Shown here one piece after another: positions 8,342 through 59,570 of a stretch of 64,000 nt of DNA. The number at the start of each line of letters is the position of its first letter. The first letter of the stretch is position 1. The notes beneath the pieces are model-generated. The model made no database searches. It worked only from the letters and a program-made list of their open reading frames with translations, and was not told the origin of the DNA. This stretch comes from Toxonevra muliebris (taxonomy: Eukaryota > Arthropoda > Insecta > Diptera > Pallopteridae): NCBI GenBank assembly GCA_963691655.1, contig OY829327.1, forward strand, positions 54,076,079 to 54,140,078, written 5' to 3'. The translations under genes were made by a program, and so were the position numbers.

Positions 8342-9920
8342 CAATAAAGTAAAATAAAAGTATGTGTTACTGCCTTATATTTTTTTTCAAAAGAATTCAT
8401 TAGAAATCATGACGTACTTTAACGAATAAAATTAACAAAAAAAATTTTGGTTGAAAAAAATATATATATATTTTAGATTGAAAAGGTTGTCCTCTCCCAA
8501 TTTGTTCCATATTAGCACAGCAAGTCAAGCCTAGGTATTTAAATATTTTTTTTATTTTTTTTTTTTTTTGAATGAATGAAACCTGAGTAATCTTGAAGTA
8601 AAAAAAAAAAAATTACCTTCTAGGGGAAAACTAAGTAGTTTCATGTAGTACATGTTGCTTTTGCGCAAATCGGAACCGTCCCTTAGCCAGAAATTACTTA
8701 AATTTGTAATTTGTTTTATTATGTAGTTTGTTTAACTTAAAATCGGAATAAAAATCGGAACACAATACAAAAACCGGAGTATTTCTGTTAGAAATAATGG
8801 TTGGAATAACAGCGGTGCAACCTTCCCGGCCTTCCAGCACTAATGATCGTTTAATCTCGGGCAAGATCGTTAGAGGAATTATATGGCGGTTCTGCTATAA
8901 TCTGCTCGTTTCGACCTATAAAACATTGGTTTTATAATTAGACACCGTTGGAGACTTCTTATATTGTTATCGTCGTCTTCTAGATTCCAGATTTTATACA
9001 TTAAATGCAAATTCATTGTCTAAAGAATTTAGATATTCTCTAATTCTAATGCTTTTGATAATTCCATCTTATTCTCATTAGAATTAGTCTAATACTAATA
9101 TGCTTTAATCATATTATATTTTTCAATGCTAACGCTCTCGGTATGCCATTAGGATGGTTTGGTTTATCTAATGATTGTTCCATCGGTTTATCTTTATCGG
9201 TAGTCTAATGTTAATAAAATGACCAACGAATTATCCGATTAATGCATTATTCTCTTCGTTTTTCTTTTCTTTTTTTACCTGCAATTGCAACTTTGCACTT
9301 GTTTTACACTTTTTCTAAAGTCTTAAGTTTCTATATCATATTTGAAAAAAATCAAGAGTACCCTTTTTTGTTTGTGAGATCTGGGATATGTATGTAAATT
9401 TAATTACTGAATCCAAATCCGGTCAGATAATATCCATTCCGTATTTGGGTTTACCAGATAAACGAATAGTGCAAACATGTAACGCTCGTTCAAACTCAAA
9501 ATAGACTTTTTGAGATTTTCAAGTCAAAACATAAGCCGATATAGATTTCAGTTAGCAAAGATATTTGAGAAGTTTGTGGAAAATCTTTAAACTTTCTTTC
9601 ATCATGACGAAATTAATAACAGAACATTTTACGGTGCGAATATTTAACTAATTTAACGAATTGAATGGGGTCTGATTCAGAAAAATCATCTAGACATCTA
9701 GAATCATTTTTCTAAAACACACTCACTTTCTCATGTACTAGACTTTAGTAATGAGAAAAACGCAACAACAATTAAGTATTTAGAACGGTAGTGGTAGTTT
9801 TCTTTCAATATCTCTATTCAGTGAAGATATTTGGAATCAAATCTGCAATTCTGGGATACGATCTCAAATATTAGTAGCTTATATAGGATATTGAAAGATT
9901 GAAAGAATAAGAATTATGAC
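8342..9920. other. non-coding, nothing recognised
   Basis: AT-rich sequence without a supported gene, RNA or element boundary. Confidence 0.5.
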
Positions 9921-9924
9921 TAAG

Positions 9925-9969
9925 ATCACTGATAAGGAATCGTGGCGGATTTCGAAACGGCCGTCTGAT
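9925..9969 (+). ncRNA. hammerhead-ribozyme-like motif, copy 1 (core mutated)
   Basis: The order of parts matches a type I hammerhead. Stem I ATCA (9925-9928) pairs with TGAT (9966-9969). The core is CTGATAA at 9929-9935. Stem II is GGAATC/GATTTC, six pairs closing a GTGGCG loop. GAAA follows at 9954-9957, then a minimal self-complementary stem III, ACGGCCGT, and cleavage triplet GTC ending at 9965. The consensus core is CTGATGA, so the conserved G8 is A here and activity is probably lost. Flanking sequence resembles copy 2 at 54233. Minimal hammerheads of this kind are known in Penelope-like elements and other retroelements; the host element here is inferred. Confidence 0.65.
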
Positions 9970-10090
9970 ATGCCCGTCTTTATACACTGTTGTTGTGATG
10001 ACTACATATATACGTTTTTTAAGCCTGTTATACATTATTTAAACGAACTGTGCTTTTAGCTATGATCAGGGTTGCTCGGTTAAGTATTAA

Positions 10091-11758
10091 CCCTTATATT
10101 GGCACCACGGTCTGGCCAGACCTTTTTCAACTTTTGTTAACATTTTTTTATTATTTCTAATATCACTATGATCTCCAAAATCCATGATATCCTTAAATGA
10201 CTATTTGTAAATAGATTTATAAGAAAGTCGAAGTCCTGAGGTATGAGGGGGCGAGATTTCGGTGATTTCAAAATTTCAGTCATATTGGTACCACCACGGT
10301 CTGGTCAGACCGTACGCATTTTCTCATAGTTTTTCCGATATTGCTTTACTTCGTCATTAGTACGTGTTGTTTCTATGTATATAAACATTATCATCCTTTT
10401 CTTTTGAAATAAAAACTTATTTTACTATGGAAACAAAAGTTTTGAATCAACACACACCATCACACAAACGACCATTGGAGTTGTAATTGAAAATTTGAAA
10501 CCACAAATTACACTAGGTTACAAATAATTATTTTTTTTCTGGGCAATGAACACCACTATCCAATTCCTATGTAAAATTGATCGCTGAGTCCGAAAATCTA
10601 TTCTATCTATTTTTATTTCTATTATGTGGTTTTGGAGATTTCACCTCTTCAACTTTTTTTATCGGAGAAAAAAAGGTTTGTCCACATAATTACAAATATC
10701 TTGGAAACTAGGAACTTGATTTGAACAAAAAGTATATGAAATTAAAGATATTTCTCATCTTACGTTTATACATTTTGATTCGATTGGGTAAATAGTTTTG
10801 GCACTATTAAGTAAATTATCAAGAAATTTTTCATTGAAATTGGATAATGGTGTTCATTAGTAATTGGCTTTGGCTGTGTTATTATAGAAAAGAAAACCTT
10901 TATCATCTTTTACTTTGGTTCCTCAAATACACCGTTTAAAATATATTCTTTGTATGAGAGCTGCCGTGCCCAGTTGCCCAAAAAATATCACAAAAAACTT
11001 TGCGCCACTTCGTCGTTTTCAATTTCATACACATGTTTCATGGAGCATGGCGTTGTCACCCAACTCCTTTGCACAAAATCTCAGTACAATAACATGTATG
11101 GTTTCGGAGATATACTCAAAATAGCATTAAGATTGCATGGGAGGTGCAACGCCCATTTGAACACAAATTCAGATCTGAAACTCCATAAGCTCGGTATCGG
11201 CAGATAATATTTCCATACAACAAATGTTGCTTGAAATATTCCATAATAAATATTCAGGTTATATGTTTGGTGCCACACCCCTTTTTCTAGCTCCATCCCC
11301 ATTTTTACTGTGGTATTGTCAGGCAGCGTCTTTGCACGCAGGACCCAGTAAATTGCAGTACTGTACTATAAATGGTATACTTAAAAAACTATAAGGTTTG
11401 TATGGGAGGTACCCCGCCCACTTGTAATTACAAACTTTTACCAAGTTAATAGTAAGGTCAGAGACATAATGCATTGTCATTTATAAAGTATAATCGGACA
11501 TACATATAAACAGATTTTCACTTTTATAATCATTGTTAGATTATTTTCTTCATTGCTGTTTCGAAACGTGAAATTTTTTAAAAATTAAACTTTTTTTTTT
11601 CAATAAATGCACATATAAATACATTATTCTTACATAAAATGTAGTGTTTTCGTACAGTTTACATTGAAAATTCAAATAAACGCAGTATAAATGTATGACG
11701 GTCTGGCTGGACCGTGGTGGCAGCAATGTGACAAACAAAAGTGGTGCCAACAGAGGAG
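10091..11758. mobile_element. piggyBac-like element with TTAA target sites (1.67 kb)
   Basis: It is bounded by TTAA at 10087-10090 and 11759-11762. The left end reads CCCTTATATTGGCACCAC and the reverse complement of the right end reads CTCCTCTGTTGGCACCAC, so the inner ten bases pair exactly. Each end has a subterminal copy of a palindromic block (GGTCTGGCCAGACC on the left, GGTCTGGCTGGACC on the right), plus another at about 10298. TTAA duplication is the known signature of piggyBac elements. No intact transposase was recognised inside, so it is probably non-autonomous or decayed. Confidence 0.7.
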
Positions 11759-49900: not shown

Positions 49901-51905
49901 TCACAATTTGCATGGATTTTTACATATGTAACTGCTATCCCACCCTCACCCTCTGTACGCAGCATTATCTAAGCCTTGGAGAACCGTTCCTGCAGACCCG
50001 TATACATTTGAAAAAAAAAACACATGTACGCGCGTGCAAATACCTTTTTCTTCGAAAATTCAATTGTATATTAAAAGCCATCTTTTATAGATTCCAGATC
50101 TATATACTACCCACCCTTTGAATTATGTTTTGAGATGAGCATTTTTTATACATATTTATAGGAACCGAAACAAGAAATTACCACGGATTTGATAGATATG
50201 GTTGTTGGCACACTATTCTACCTTGGCAGGTTCATATTTAGATATCAGAAAAAATGTTTTTTAATATTTAGTTTCTATGAATAGTATTGGCAAGTATGTA
50301 AGGACGGGTATTTTACACGATAGAGGTTCTGTTATAACAATGAAATCTTGGTCCACGATTTATCTCCATCTCGTGAGAATTCTGCATATGTACCACATTT
50401 CTCTACTCTAATTAACATGATTTCAATATATCCCTTTCTAGATCCAAAGTTGATTCTGTCAATGGTTAAACTCACAGATAGGAAGGGGAGATTACCGTCG
50501 AGACAAGGCCGTATTTAGGGGGGAGGTTTTGGGGGTTCTGACCTCCCCCCTTCCCCCTCCCTCCCCCCCCCCCCCCCCCCGAAATGTGAAAACTTTTTCT
50601 AATTTTTAATATTGATTGATTGAATATTTTTCAATCGGTTTCTTTCTAAAAAGTCAAATAAAAAAAAAATTTCAAATAAATTTGAATTGAAATCGTGCGA
50701 AGTTGTACTACATGGCCAAAAATGGTATTTTCAGGGGTTTCAACCCCATTTTTCTAAAACGTGACGTAATGGGAAGTTTTTGACCTCAGATTCGTGTTCA
50801 GCATGAAAAATTCATTAGCAAACACTAGGAACAATATTGTTTACCAAACCCATGCAGGACAGTGTTATTGAATAAGCTTCAAAGTTCTTAATCTTAAAAT
50901 ATAATTAATCCTTTAACCCATTATTGCTCAGAGCACCCGACTTGGAAGATTTCAATGCTGTGACTGCACGAGTTTAGGGAATATATGCCAACTTCATTCG
51001 AGCCCCTCATCATTGATAATGGCCCAAATTCCCACTAATAATCATTTGAAAAAATTAGTCTCTGACTATTTTTGGAATTTTTGATCATTTTTTTGAGGTT
51101 GGGTTCATTATCAGTAATGGCAAGTCAATGAGTTATCGAAATTATGTCTCTCACGATAAAAAATGTACTGGAATCCACATTGAATAATATTTATTTGAAA
51201 AAATTTAAATTGATTATTCTGTGAATTTTTGTCATTTTCGGCCATTTTTTTAGGTTAAGATTAAGAAAATTCGGAAACAAAAATTTTTCCTAAAGCTTTA
51301 AGACAATTATCCACTTTTCTCTCTAGTCTGATAGGGTCCATCAAATGCATCATCGTATTTAATTTATTGAATTTAAACATCAGTTTCATAAAAATTTTAT
51401 ATGAATATTTTCTTCGAATGAAAATCTGCCTACGGCCCTGCGTCGAGAGGCATAAAAACGCATAGACTTTTTTTGAAATATAAAATAAATATTTTTGGAA
51501 ATGAGTTTTAAAGTATTTTATTATTCAATGGAGAGTAAATTCCAGTTTTATTAATATGAAAAAAATCCAAAATGGCGGCTCCAGCTCCTATCAAATAAAG
51601 CCATGTGCACAACGTGTTCTGATTTGCTTCTGGGGTGCTCCACAGCTATCCGAAACAAAAATCGGAAACAAAAATGGGTTAAAATTATTAAACTAACCTA
51701 AAATTGGGGGTCTTTTATTTTTTCGTTTTCTGAAAAAAAAACTTTTTTTCAGTTTTTTTTTTCTTCAATGGGCGAGAAAAACATTTCTGAAACAATTTTT
51801 TACTTTTTATTGTACTAAAGACTTTGTTTCTCTCTTTACAGTTACTCGCCGGAAGAATTGTGTGCTAAATATGACCTCAAAACTGAAAAGAAAGATGATG
51901 ATTAA
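31137..51905 (+). CDS. pnt: pointed, P1-type ETS transcription factor (4 coding exons, 663 aa)
   Basis: join(31137-31944, 47978-48939, 49020-49177, 51842-51905). Pointed is the nuclear ETS activator acting downstream of receptor tyrosine kinase/Ras/MAPK signalling in flies; P1 is the constitutively active isoform that lacks the SAM/PNT domain. The four exons sum to 1992 nt, all introns are GT-AG, and the split glycine codons at residues 270 and 643 join correctly. Residues 1-269 are isoform-specific, starting MPPSSFLV, with His/Gln runs at about 135-180. Residues 270-552 are Asn/Ser/Gln/Gly-rich. The ETS domain spans about 553-638, with [11 protein letters not shown] at its start and a recognition helix carrying RGLRYYY (Arg611 and Arg614). 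The tail after it is short and acidic. The ETS domain is almost identical to Drosophila pointed as I know it; the low-complexity parts are longer. Confidence 0.93.
33848..34985 (+). mobile_element. TIR-like element with remnant of an unfamiliar arthropod repeat protein
   Basis: The left end (GGGCCTAAGGTTTGCGCATT onward, to ACCATAAGATAACTTGTT near 33913) is inversely repeated at the right end near 34918-34980. Between them, plus-strand frames read [58 protein letters not shown] and then [16 protein letters not shown], broken by stops and shifts. From memory these resemble a multi-copy family of uncharacterised arthropod proteins ([13 protein letters not shown] motif), but I cannot name a superfamily. 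A solo arm lies at 27875-28255. Confidence 0.5.
37617..38204. mobile_element. TTAA-flanked short element (588 bp)
   Basis: TTAA at 37613-37616 is followed by TGAGGCTCACCAGT. ACTGGTGAGCCCCC ends at 38204 and is followed by TTAA. The reverse complement of the right end is GGGGGCTCACCAGT, so the two 14-base ends match at 12 positions. TTAA sites suggest a piggyBac-like MITE. The ends differ from those of the 10.1 kb element. Confidence 0.55.
38920..39320 (+). mobile_element. non-LTR retrotransposon 3' fragment
   Basis: Plus-strand frames read [19 protein letters not shown], then [20 protein letters not shown], the region after RNase H with its closing Cys/His motif. Conceptual stops are present and no reverse transcriptase is attached. 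Compare the minus-strand fragment at 3400-3900 and the one at 63490-63790. Confidence 0.7.
40680..42400. repeat. pnt: microsatellite-rich block in pointed intron 1
   Basis: CATA/TACA repeats (about 40680-40830 and 41462-41505), GAGT/GAGC repeats (about 40856-40890), CAG/CAA runs (about 41205-41245 and 42170-42205), GTGT runs (about 41725-41765) and GAAT repeats (about 41870-41910). Composition is less AT-rich than the flanks, so conserved control DNA may be included; that is inference. Confidence 0.6.
44207..44223 (+). repeat. G17 homopolymer
   Basis: Seventeen consecutive G in AT-rich DNA, within a longer unexplained block (44110-44300). Confidence 0.95.
44700..44800 (-). repeat. possible tRNA-derived SINE fragment
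   Basis: On the minus strand 44739-44749 reads GGTTCGATTCC, a perfect pol III B box. The upstream sequence lacks a proper A box and D arm, and the T stem pairs poorly. A second B-box-like block, GGGTTCTATTCTC, lies on the same strand near 44622-44634. Confidence 0.35.
45290..46240 (-). pseudogene. Jockey-clade LINE reverse transcriptase remnant
   Basis: On the minus strand, in order: [13 protein letters not shown] and [16 protein letters not shown] (46200-46090), [15 protein letters not shown] (about 46040), [16 protein letters not shown] (about 45825), [12 protein letters not shown] (about 45740), and [20 protein letters not shown] (about 45420-45360). These are the conserved reverse transcriptase blocks of Jockey-type elements. 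The catalytic box is YPDD where YADD is usual. Frame breaks show a dead, 5'-truncated copy inside pointed intron 1, antisense to pointed. Confidence 0.85.
46800..46992 (+). mobile_element. possible Tc1/pogo-type fragment with short inverted repeat
   Basis: A short frame reads [20 protein letters not shown], resembling the first helix-turn-helix of pogo/CENP-B-type transposases. GTTTCTTTTGTC (46944-46955) is followed by its exact reverse complement, GACAAAAGAAAC (46981-46992). A CAGTGACAAAAG block looks like a Tc1/pogo end. A related GTGACAAAAGAAA recurs near 47232. Boundaries are unclear. Confidence 0.3.
47978..48939 (+). CDS. pnt: pointed common exon: linker and start of ETS domain
   Basis: Acceptor CAATAG precedes GTTACAGC. 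The exon supplies two bases of Gly270, residues 271-590, and ends GATGAG at the donor GTAAGA (phase 0). It encodes Gln/Asn/Ser/Gly-rich linker, a serine-rich segment, and the first 38 residues of the ETS region (GPIQLWQF to TDPDE). The open frame continues upstream to 47902, but that part is intron. Confidence 0.92.
49020..49177 (+). CDS. pnt: pointed exon: ETS recognition helix
   Basis: An 80-nt GT-AG intron (48940-49019) precedes it. It encodes residues 591-642, [20 protein letters not shown] onward through [10 protein letters not shown] and the C-terminal strands, ending with two bases of Gly643 at the donor GTATGT. Confidence 0.93.
49178..51841 (+). other. pnt: pointed last intron (2.66 kb)
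   Basis: GTATGT donor and TTTACAG acceptor. It contains the hAT-type element at 50504-51440; the remainder shows nothing recognised. Confidence 0.85.
50504..51440. mobile_element. hAT-type non-autonomous element, copy A (937 bp)
   Basis: Starts CAAGGCCGTATTTAGGGG and ends TACGGCCCTG (reverse complement CAGGGCCGTA), with a perfect 8-bp duplication, CGTCGAGA, at 50496-50503 and 51441-51448. Copy B is at 55307-56253 and shares ends and interior. It holds a C18 run (50563-50580). No transposase is seen. It is inserted within the last pointed intron. Confidence 0.88.
51842..51905 (+). CDS. pnt: pointed last coding exon
   Basis: Acceptor TTTACAG, then one base of Gly643 and residues 644-663 ([20 protein letters not shown]), stop TAA at 51903-51905. 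The PEEL-AKYDL tail matches the Drosophila pointed C-terminus apart from a few residues. Confidence 0.92.
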
Positions 51906-53770: not shown

Positions 53771-54232
53771 GAAAATTAATTAAACACAAAAAAAAAATAA
53801 ATAAATGCTCAAATTGCATAAATTATGTATAATTGTTAAAAAGAAAAAAACATTTTTGAGTTTTATTCTGAGATTTAATAAATTTCGATTTATGTGGTGA
53901 ATCGTTTCAAAAATTGCCAACTCAAATCCAAACGGCAAAGCAGCTAGCAAAAATACATAATTTTCATCAAAAAACAAAGTAAATCGAAATATGGCAGACA
54001 ATTTAACTACGCAAATCGAATATGCATTTTTTGCGACATAACCCTCGGCCAGACACATATTTCGACTTGTATGAAAATATTGCGATTTTGGCCCAGCAAT
54101 GTGACGACATTAAATCATTATATTAATACATATCGATATCTTCCCGACAAAAAATTTCAAAAAAATTCTTTGTGAATTGCGTATACCACTTTCCAAGGCT
54201 TCATGAAAACAATTTTTGAAAACATCACAAAG

Positions 54233-54277
54233 ATCACTGATGAGGAACCGTGGTGGGTTCCGAAACGGCCGTTTGAT
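54233..54277 (+). ncRNA. hammerhead-ribozyme-like motif, copy 2 (core intact)
   Basis: Stem I ATCA (54233-54236) pairs with TGAT (54274-54277). The core CTGATGA (54237-54243) is exact. Stem II is GGAACC/GGTTCC, six Watson-Crick pairs with a GTGGTG loop. GAAA follows at 54262-54265, then the minimal stem III ACGGCCGT and triplet GTT ending at 54273. GTT is an allowed NUH site, weaker than GTC. Compared with copy 1, stem II differs by a U-A to C-G change and a G-U to G-C change, so pairing is conserved while sequence is not. Confidence 0.75.
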
Positions 54278-54417
54278 TTGCCTGCTCTTTATAAACTATT
54301 GCGACTTAGTCACTTTCACAAAAAGGTTGTTTCATTAATTAAGCCTGATAAACAACATTTTAACTAATTTTTTTAAAACTTTATGACTTTAGCAAAAAAA
54401 GTAAAAACGTAACTGTG

Positions 54418-55306: not shown

Positions 55307-56253
55307 CAAGGCCGTATTTAGGGGGAGGTTTTGGGGTTCTGACTAACGATATTTTTTACTTCTATCGGTTTTTTTTCTAAAAAGTCATATATAAAAAAAA
55401 TAAATTTGAAATCTTAGTTACACTATGCGATCAAATCCGATTTGTTTTCTTCGACATGAGGTTTGACTACGGATTCAAAAAGAGAAGGTGATACTGAGCA
55501 CTCCTGCATTCATAGTTTTTCTAGGTCAGTAACTGTTTTTGATTTAAAGTTTCGTCCTGAATCAGTTTGAAAAGTTGAAAAATTAATAAAAATAGAAAAA
55601 ATTATCGGATCCTTGTAAAATTAGACTTGCTTGAACCCCATTTTTTCCTAAAACGTGACGTGATGGGAAGTTTTTGACCTCAGATTCGTGTTCAACGCGA
55701 AAAATTTTTTCGCAAAAACTCCACCTTATTAGCAAAACCCATGTAGTTTAGGAGGCAATCTCAAAATATAATTAATTTTTTAACGCATTATTGGTCAGAG
55801 CACCACGAAAGATCTCAACCTCATTCGGGTTCCTTATCATTGATAATGGCTCAAATTCCCAATGATGATCATTTGAAAAAAATGAGCCTCTACTATTTTT
55901 GGTAATTTTTTTGAGGTTGAGTACATCATCAGTAGTGGGAAGTCAGTGAGTTAATGAAATTATGTACTTCACGATAAAAAAAAAGCATTAGAATGCACAT
56001 TGAATATTTACTTGAAAAAATTTAATTTGATTATTCAGTGAATTTTTTGTTACTTTTGGCCATTTTTTTGAGGTTAAGATTAAAAAAATCGGAAAATTTT
56101 TCCTAAAATTTTAATTTTATAGGGTCCATCAAATGTATCATCGATTTAATTTATTGTATTTAAAAATCAGTTTGATAAAAATTATTTATGAATATTTTCT
56201 TCGAATAAAAAACCACCCACCCCCCCCGAAAAAAATTTCTGGCTACGGCCCTG
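55307..56253. mobile_element. hAT-type non-autonomous element, copy B (947 bp)
   Basis: Begins CAAGGCCGTATTTAGGGGG and ends CTACGGCCCTG, with a perfect 8-bp duplication, GATTGAAG, at 55299-55306 and 56254-56261. It is the sister of copy A, with the same interior blocks in the same orientation and several indels. No transposase ORF. Confidence 0.88.
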
Positions 56254-58174: not shown

Positions 58175-59570
58175 TGTGCAAAGCTCCATTTTTTCCTGCT
58201 CACAGTGGATTTTCTGAAAGATTATATGAGAAAAATAAGATTTAGAAAAAAATATTGAGGTCTCTAGTGGGAAATAGCCAGTCGGTTTTGAACCAAAGGC
58301 TTAAAAACAGGCTTTGAAAAGGTAAAAAGCTTTAGTCATTGATAACTTCTAAAATATTGAATTTTAAGTAATTGTTGCGAACCCAATTTTTTTAGGACTA
58401 CTAGGGCAATATTTTGTTCTTAGAAAGTTTTGATCTTCGAGTGAAATTGAACCTTGTTTTGATCGAAAAGCTGTCAATTTTGTACAAAATTTCCATGGGA
58501 AAAATTCTTTAAACGAATTTTTTTTAATTTGTTAGAGGTGGTATTTTCTGTTTAAAATTTTTATGTTATAAAGGATTAAATATGATTGGTTCTAAAAAAA
58601 AAGTTCTTTAAAAATGTTTATTTTTAAGAAAAATAGGCCGTCTCAAATTAAAAAAAAATCGATTTTTTTATTTTTTTTTTTTTGAATTATAAGTTTATTT
58701 ATAGGTAGACAAATCTTTGTACAGTAGAATCGCAACAATTCTTACCCAGTTAATTCAAAATCTTAATAATTTGCAACAAATTTGCAAAAATCGCTACAAG
58801 GTCTGTTTAACATCTTATAAATCTTAATTGATTACACAGTGCAACAAAAATTTTATGCGGAAGATTTTCGAACGGTTTTATAGTAATTAAGGGTTGCTGA
58901 TCACGACTGGTTCTCCCACAATATGGGCCTGAAGTCGGAAAAATGGGGTCTTCAGAGTCTATTAAGAAATTCCTTTATTTCAAGAGATACGAATTTTATG
59001 TCCGAAACAAAGTTGCTATGCATAAAGAGATAAACAATTTTTGCGTACACACTTTTTCTCCATCTTTTACCCTTCCTCTTGAAAATGGGGTTTTAAACCC
59101 CCTTTTTTGATAAATGATCGAAACAAAAACATTTTTAAAAACCTTTTTTTTTCAATCCATTCACATTTAATCCTCTATAATATAAAAGTTTTTAACAGAA
59201 ACACCACCTTTAAAAAATTGAAAAAAATTCGTTTAAAGAATTTTCCCATGGAAATTTTGTACAAAATTGTCAGATTTTCGATCAAAACAAGGTTAAATTT
59301 CACTCGTAGATCAAAACTTTCTAAGAACAAAATATTGCCCTAGTTATCCTAAAAAAAATTGTGTCCGCAACAACTACTTAAAATTCAATATTTTTGAAGT
59401 TATTAATGACTTAAGCTATTTACCTTTTCAAAGCCTATTTTTAAGCCTTTGGTTCAAAACCGACTGGCTATTTCCCACTAGAGACCTCAATATTTTTTTC
59501 TAAATCTTATTTTTTTCATATAATCTTTCAGAAAATCTACTGTGAGCAGGAGAAAAACGAACTTTGCACA
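58175..59570. mobile_element. 1.4 kb element with ~450-base inverted repeats
   Basis: The left arm from TGTGCAAAG (58175) to about 58640 is repeated in reverse from about 59120 to CTTTGCACA (59570). Examples are GAGGTCTCTAGTGGGAAATA against TATTTCCCACTAGAGACCTC, and TTTTGTACAAAATTTCCATG against CATGGAAATTTTGTACAAAA. The arms look highly similar, suggesting a fairly young element or gene conversion. The spacer is about 480 bases without a recognised protein. No target duplication was identified. Confidence 0.75.

Follow-up and report, generated by a model that had tools for sequence, protein, structure and literature searches.

Genomic setting of the element

The window analysed here, meaning the whole 64-kb stretch of Toxonevra muliebris DNA, carries pointed, with coding exons up to 51902, and, at 61-63 kb, glutamate dehydrogenase (Gdh). 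Approximately 2.3 kb beyond the last pointed coding exon lies a short element, referred to as copy 2, that contains a hammerhead ribozyme motif, and a related sequence, copy 1, is present on the same strand some 44 kb away. Twelve open reading frames of at least 120 aa occur in the window, and the five that were put to Pfam returned Ets, three pieces of glutamate dehydrogenase and one frame without a match. Among the named matches to pointed, taken from the best 120 of 1205, the nearest are those of Glossina, Teleopsis, Anastrepha and Musca, at 62-67%. The two copies of the element are placed as follows.

54224-54367, + strand: copy 2 of the element, minimum extent (strong block 54224-54301, weaker block 54339-54367)
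9916-10047, + strand: copy 1 of the element (strong block 9916-9992, weaker block 10019-10047)

A BLAST comparison within the window, using a 500-base query, aligned the strong block to 9916-9992 with 83% identity over 78 columns (E 5.7e-17). The identity begins abruptly at 54224/9916, 7 nt upstream of stem I, and is centred on the ribozyme block. The 100 bases 5' of this boundary are unrelated in the two copies, 1939 of 1992 random pairs being as good, whereas the 3' tails (TTAAGCCTG...AA at 54339-54367 and 10019-10047) are alike at a level reached by only 10 of the 1992. The flanking similarity proposed in an initial sequence-only reading of this DNA thus holds on the 3' side and fails on the 5' side. 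Given the unrelated 5' flanks and the related 3' tails, both sequences look like copies of one element that carries the ribozyme at the 5' end and extends over at least 144 bp in copy 2 and at least 132 bp in copy 1. The GC content of these extents is 0.375 and 0.371, respectively. Membership in a dispersed element, which that reading had also proposed, is supported. A covariance model built from the two copies returned no convincing third copy in the window (two other matches, E 1.9 and 4.5), and a candidate on the minus strand near 55830 was rejected as it has no GAAA in place and is part of another repeat. Tandem hammerheads were not found, the 64 kb containing only two hammerhead-like matches, and an exact-pattern search of the viral_contigs and genome_contigs collections, neither of which is a fly collection, gave 0 matches.

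Several other repeats were observed in the window. Two direct copies of an interspersed repeat flank copy 2, at 50739-51424 and 55631-56211 (72% over 693 columns); these repeats of approximately 0.7 kb were considered as possible pseudo-LTRs and rejected, having no hammerhead inside. An inverted repeat, 58175-58625 / 59121-59570, with 91% identity over 452 columns and a spacer of about 0.5 kb, lies between pointed and Gdh and is foldback or MITE-like. Downstream of copy 1 are three occurrences of the palindromic motif ACGGTCTGGYCAGACC, allowing at most 2 mismatches (10107-10122, 10296-10311 and 11698-11713), a result that 0 of 100 shuffles reproduced.

Anatomy of the copy 2 hammerhead

On the + strand, positions 54231-54279 read AGATCA CTGATGA GGAACC GTGGTG GGTTCC GAAA C GGCC G TT TGATTT, which divides into the following parts.

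54231-54279, + strand: type I hammerhead motif of copy 2, from sequence reading, descriptor scan and Rfam Hammerhead_1 (19.9 bits, below the cut-off)
54231-54236, + strand: stem I 5' strand AGATCA, 6 bp with TGATTT at 54274-54279, including one G-U
54237-54243, + strand: core CTGATGA (C3-A9), exact match
54244-54261, + strand: stem II GGAACC / GGTTCC, 6 bp, with the 6-nt loop GTGGTG (54250-54255)
54262-54265, + strand: core GAAA, exact match
54265-54272, + strand: stem III ACGGCCGT, 2 bp (A-U, C-G), with the self-complementary loop GGCC
54271-54273, + strand: cleavage triplet GTT
54274-54279, + strand: stem I 3' strand TGATTT, partner of 54231-54236, stem I being open outward

The exact CTGATGA and GAAA core claimed by the initial reading is confirmed, and the span of 54233..54277 that it gave was right in substance, the true motif being slightly longer at both ends. 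GTT is a less favoured cleavage triplet, and scission is predicted between 54273 and 54274, following the hammerhead rule. All invariant core positions (C3 U4 G5 A6 N7 G8 A9, G12 A13 A14 A15 and U16 H17) are present when compared with the consensus given in PMC3088659. The three-helix layout is likewise satisfied, with stems of 6, 6 and 2 bp, of which II and III are closed by loops and I is open, stem III being weak. Taken together, this is a complete and real type I hammerhead motif, carried by a dispersed element of the fly; the core of copy 2 is intact, and its cleavage is probably weak at best. Its stem III is a perfect palindrome that could allow pairing between two molecules. Loop II (GTGGTG) is also fully complementary, with G-U allowed, to CATCAC at 54223-54228, just 5' of stem I. 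This potential pseudoknot was set aside, since 11.6% of random 15-mers equal it and the corresponding pairing in copy 1 involves only 4 bases.

Comparison of the two hammerheads

Copy 1 contains a second, damaged version of the same motif.

9923-9971, + strand: copy 1 hammerhead, with core CTGATAA (G8 to A), triplet GTC and one stem I mismatch

Stems II and III of copy 1 are intact and one of the six stem I pairs is lost, such that 13 of 14 pairs stand. G8 is the general acid of the hammerhead, and because it is gone from the core, the copy 1 hammerhead is predicted to be inactive. Across the two copies, 11 of the 14 stem pairs are invariant, one shows a double change (C-G/U-A), one alternates between G-C and G-U, and one is broken. 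The stem II changes pointed out in the initial reading, U-A in copy 1 against C-G in copy 2 and G-U against G-C with a loop of six bases in both, are therefore borne out. The accompanying argument that chance similarity would not preserve pairing is overstated, as it draws on two sequences with one double change, one of which lacks G8 and one stem I pair. With a single covarying pair in two sequences the covariation is barely evidence, and as proof it was rejected (239 of 500 shuffles equal it).

Chance expectation and matches to Rfam

The frequency at which such a motif arises by chance was estimated with a descriptor that required exact CTGANGA and GAAA, 4 bp or more in stems I and II and 2 bp or more in stem III, and for which copy 2 is the sole site in the 64-kb window. 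Applied with these cut-offs of 4, 4 and 2 to both strands of 2.03 Gb of first-order random sequence, the descriptor gave 178 sites, or 0.0056 per 64 kb, and raising the stems to at least 6, 6 and 2 bp left 1 site, or approximately 3e-5 per 64 kb; the 6/6 threshold is post hoc, having been chosen once the motif was known. A looser scan of 5561 random windows gave an expectation of 0.0074 exact-core matches per window and, allowing at most one core mismatch, 0.22 per window, where the 2 observed are copy 1 and copy 2. The palindromic loop GGCC lies outside the descriptor and has an 8% chance at this composition. Chance alone is an unlikely source of the motif, though less so in view of the many windows that were read.

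When stretches of 77-79 bases were scanned against all of Rfam, Hammerhead_1 (RF00163) was the top-scoring family for either copy. The match to copy 2 covers 54231-54279 and model positions 1-45, the full length, at 19.9 bits (E 0.0062, 79 bases scanned), and that to copy 1 covers 9923-9971, again model 1-45, at 22.2 bits (E 0.001, 77 bases scanned). Neither score reaches the Rfam gathering score of 34 for this family, and scaled to the whole window neither would be significant by itself. The copy 1 match was also returned in a 181-base scan, while no hammerhead was listed for copy 2 in longer scans (48-64 kb, 54180-54340 and 54188-54368); these misses appear to depend on the length of sequence scanned. 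That the core-damaged copy scores above the intact one perhaps reflects its GTC triplet.

Folding of monomers and dimers

In copy 2 the most favourable fold of the monomer is an alternative to the hammerhead (-14.0 versus -9.4 kcal/mol, a gap of 4.6), and in copy 1 the difference is larger (-10.6 versus -0.7 kcal/mol, a gap of 9.9). The favoured alternative monomer fold pairs CUG with CGG. Folding energies of the three stretches considered are ordinary, with z-scores of -1.0, 0.2 and 0.3 and with 26, 108 and 112 of 200 shuffles reaching the same level. In the two-strand cofold the minimum, at -41.1, has the palindrome paired across molecules and both stems II formed, and since stem I is open in this minimum the cofold in itself is no demonstration of a dimeric hammerhead.

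Silent changes in one reading frame

Six of the seven differences between the copies within the motif (54231-54280 versus 9923-9972) are silent in the frame RSLMRNRGGFRNGRLI. Approximately 2% of random placements match this bias in any of the six frames, whether or not pairing is kept. The bias fades when the ungapped comparison is extended to 54224-54284, with 6 silent changes versus 4 that are not; in copy 1 the same frame meets a stop shortly upstream, and a 1-base gap follows downstream. Neither of the two plus-strand frames of copy 2 that were searched has a Pfam match or a homologue of similar length, and the 43-aa frame through the motif has no match in Pfam and no relative of comparable length, although a long protein holding the piece would escape such a search. 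A non-coding element does not predict the silent bias within the motif.

Origin of the element

We favour a reading in which copy 2 is an insertion of a short, non-coding and non-autonomous retroelement with a type I hammerhead, of the non-LTR retrozyme sort, and give this a probability of roughly 0.64. Animal non-LTR retrozymes are repeats of approximately 150-450 bp with GC below 50% and no LTR, present in many genomic copies and yielding circular and linear RNAs with hammerhead ends; the GC of 37-38%, the size as far as it is delimited, and the two-base-pair helix III with its tetraloop appear to fit the descriptions in PMC7229834. The presence of all core positions, a stem quality found once in 2.03 Gb of random sequence, the 13 of 14 pairs that stand in copy 1, the related 3' tails, the identity centred on the ribozyme block, the palindromic tetraloop outside the descriptor and the fact that the two relaxed matches in the window are the two homologous copies point in the same direction, and the end-to-end Rfam matches strengthen this reading slightly. 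Against it are the restriction to two copies in the window, neither of them tandem, the Rfam scores below the gathering cut-off, the longer scans that list no hammerhead for copy 2, the favoured alternative folds, the ordinary folding energies, the open stem I in the two-strand minimum, the loss of G8 in copy 1 and the mostly silent changes; retrozymes are described as tandem repeats with one hammerhead per unit. Copy 2 lies alone, carries the GTT triplet and is probably a relic and not a working source. By analogy with the retrozymes of PMC7229834, transcripts of the repeat would be processed by hammerhead cleavage, the processed RNA would be circularised by a host ligase, and the circles could then be copied by the reverse transcriptase of another element. 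Two copies of the RNA may pair through ACGGCCGU, the palindromic stem III, which would help cleavage.

A different origin is possible but rather unlikely, namely that copy 2 is the remnant of a Penelope-like element (PLE), its hammerhead being that of the pseudo-LTR of an autonomous element whose RT/GIY-YIG has been lost here. PLEs are present in flies, as exemplified by Penelope of Drosophila virilis (PMC12910113), their terminal repeats contain hammerheads of type I, and reports on animal genomes count dispersed, minimal type I hammerheads in the thousands (PMC7761336, PMC6431247). In one PLE the ORF begins at stem II, inside the hammerhead (PMC11167929), and an arrangement of this kind could account for the mostly silent changes; yet the 43-aa frame here has neither a Pfam match nor a relative of similar length. 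PLE hammerheads are moreover described in PMC7761336 as minimal forms without helix III or the loop-loop contacts, whereas copy 2 has a helix III. There is no second hammerhead near copy 2, the next hammerhead-like match being 44 kb off. A link to a Penelope-type RT/GIY-YIG element, for which the initial reading proposed to look, finds no support at this locus, as helix III is present and no stop-to-stop ORF of at least 120 aa lies between 48957 and 61128.

It is distinctly unlikely that the repeat is no ribozyme at all, and that a piece of protein-coding or other mobile sequence happens to resemble a hammerhead. The silent bias is in accordance with such an origin, as are the greater stability of the non-hammerhead folds and the Rfam scores below the cut-off. 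This account is weakened by the Hammerhead_1 matches that span both copies end to end, and a complete motif is improbable by chance. The bias also fades over 54224-54284, copy 1 is interrupted by a stop and a 1-base gap in the relevant frame, and neither plus-strand frame of copy 2 has a Pfam match or a homologue of similar length.

A more specific proposal, which we regard as very doubtful, is that the copies represent a retroelement family of higher flies, short, dispersed and non-tandem, in which a lone weak hammerhead becomes active once two transcripts pair through the palindromic stem III, which would make processing dependent on RNA concentration. Such a family might also have a reading frame through the ribozyme, a possibility raised by the fact that most changes between the copies are silent in one frame. 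Comparable designs are described in the literature: the Aedes hammerhead loop III is expected to form a 10-bp stem in the dimer (PMC3088659) and amphibian hammerheads are described with a one-base-pair helix III and a palindromic tetraloop (PMC7229834). A second hammerhead type with a two-base-pair helix III is likened to invertebrate hammerheads in PMC7229834. Most invertebrate type I hammerheads are nevertheless reported to have a stable helix III and to cleave as monomers (PMC7761336), which lowers the standing of the proposal and counts against the dimer step in the favoured reading too, and an Aedes repeat hammerhead RNA showed no cleavage when assayed (PMC3088659).

Finally, a hammerhead-like string arising purely by chance in AT-rich DNA and duplicated once is highly improbable, for although many windows were scanned and generous cut-offs give 0.0056-0.0074 exact-core matches per window, stems of 6, 6 and 2 bp are expected at about 3e-5 per window, the palindromic stem III lies outside the descriptor, and the similarity between the copies is centred on the motif.

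Significance and comparison with known systems

If the non-LTR retrozyme-like element is confirmed genome-wide, the list of animals whose repeats carry type I hammerheads would gain a higher fly, and with it a tractable insect group for asking what role the ribozyme plays in retroelements. Copy 2 also illustrates how a core-intact hammerhead that scores below the Rfam cut-off is overlooked in longer scans.

In comparison with the Rfam family Hammerhead_1 (RF00163), copy 2 has the same core and the model consensus includes a self-complementary stem III of the ACGnnCGU type, while the sequence of stem I differs and the stem II stretch is longer here (16 versus 12 hidden positions in the consensus). 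The resemblance to the hammerheads of PLEs and Terminons is that of a type I core in a mobile element (PMC7761336, PMC11167929, PMC6431247); those hammerheads are described as minimal, and here neither an RT/GIY-YIG ORF nor a pair of pseudo-LTRs is seen at the locus. The newt satellite hammerhead similarly has a palindromic tetraloop closing a very short helix III and cuts better as a dimer (PMC7229834, PMC6155905), though it has a one-base-pair helix III in a tandem amphibian satellite, as opposed to two base pairs in a dispersed element. Type I hammerheads of satellites and retrozymes are also described as having a short helix III capped by a palindromic tetraloop (PMC7229834).

Two further parallels are with animal non-LTR retrozymes and with the interspersed-repeat hammerheads of Aedes aegypti. 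The former are, as the element described here appears to be, short, low in GC and non-coding, with a type I hammerhead whose short helix III is closed by a tetraloop (PMC7229834); in contrast, the fly element is represented by single, non-tandem copies, and the core of copy 1 is damaged. The latter are likewise dipteran, with a self-complementary stem/loop III for a long intermolecular helix (PMC3088659), whereas the host here is a higher fly. Repeat-borne hammerheads with a palindromic loop III are thus a documented kind, published for Aedes aegypti (PMC3088659), and as matters stand the fly element is a plausible though unremarkable new member of it.
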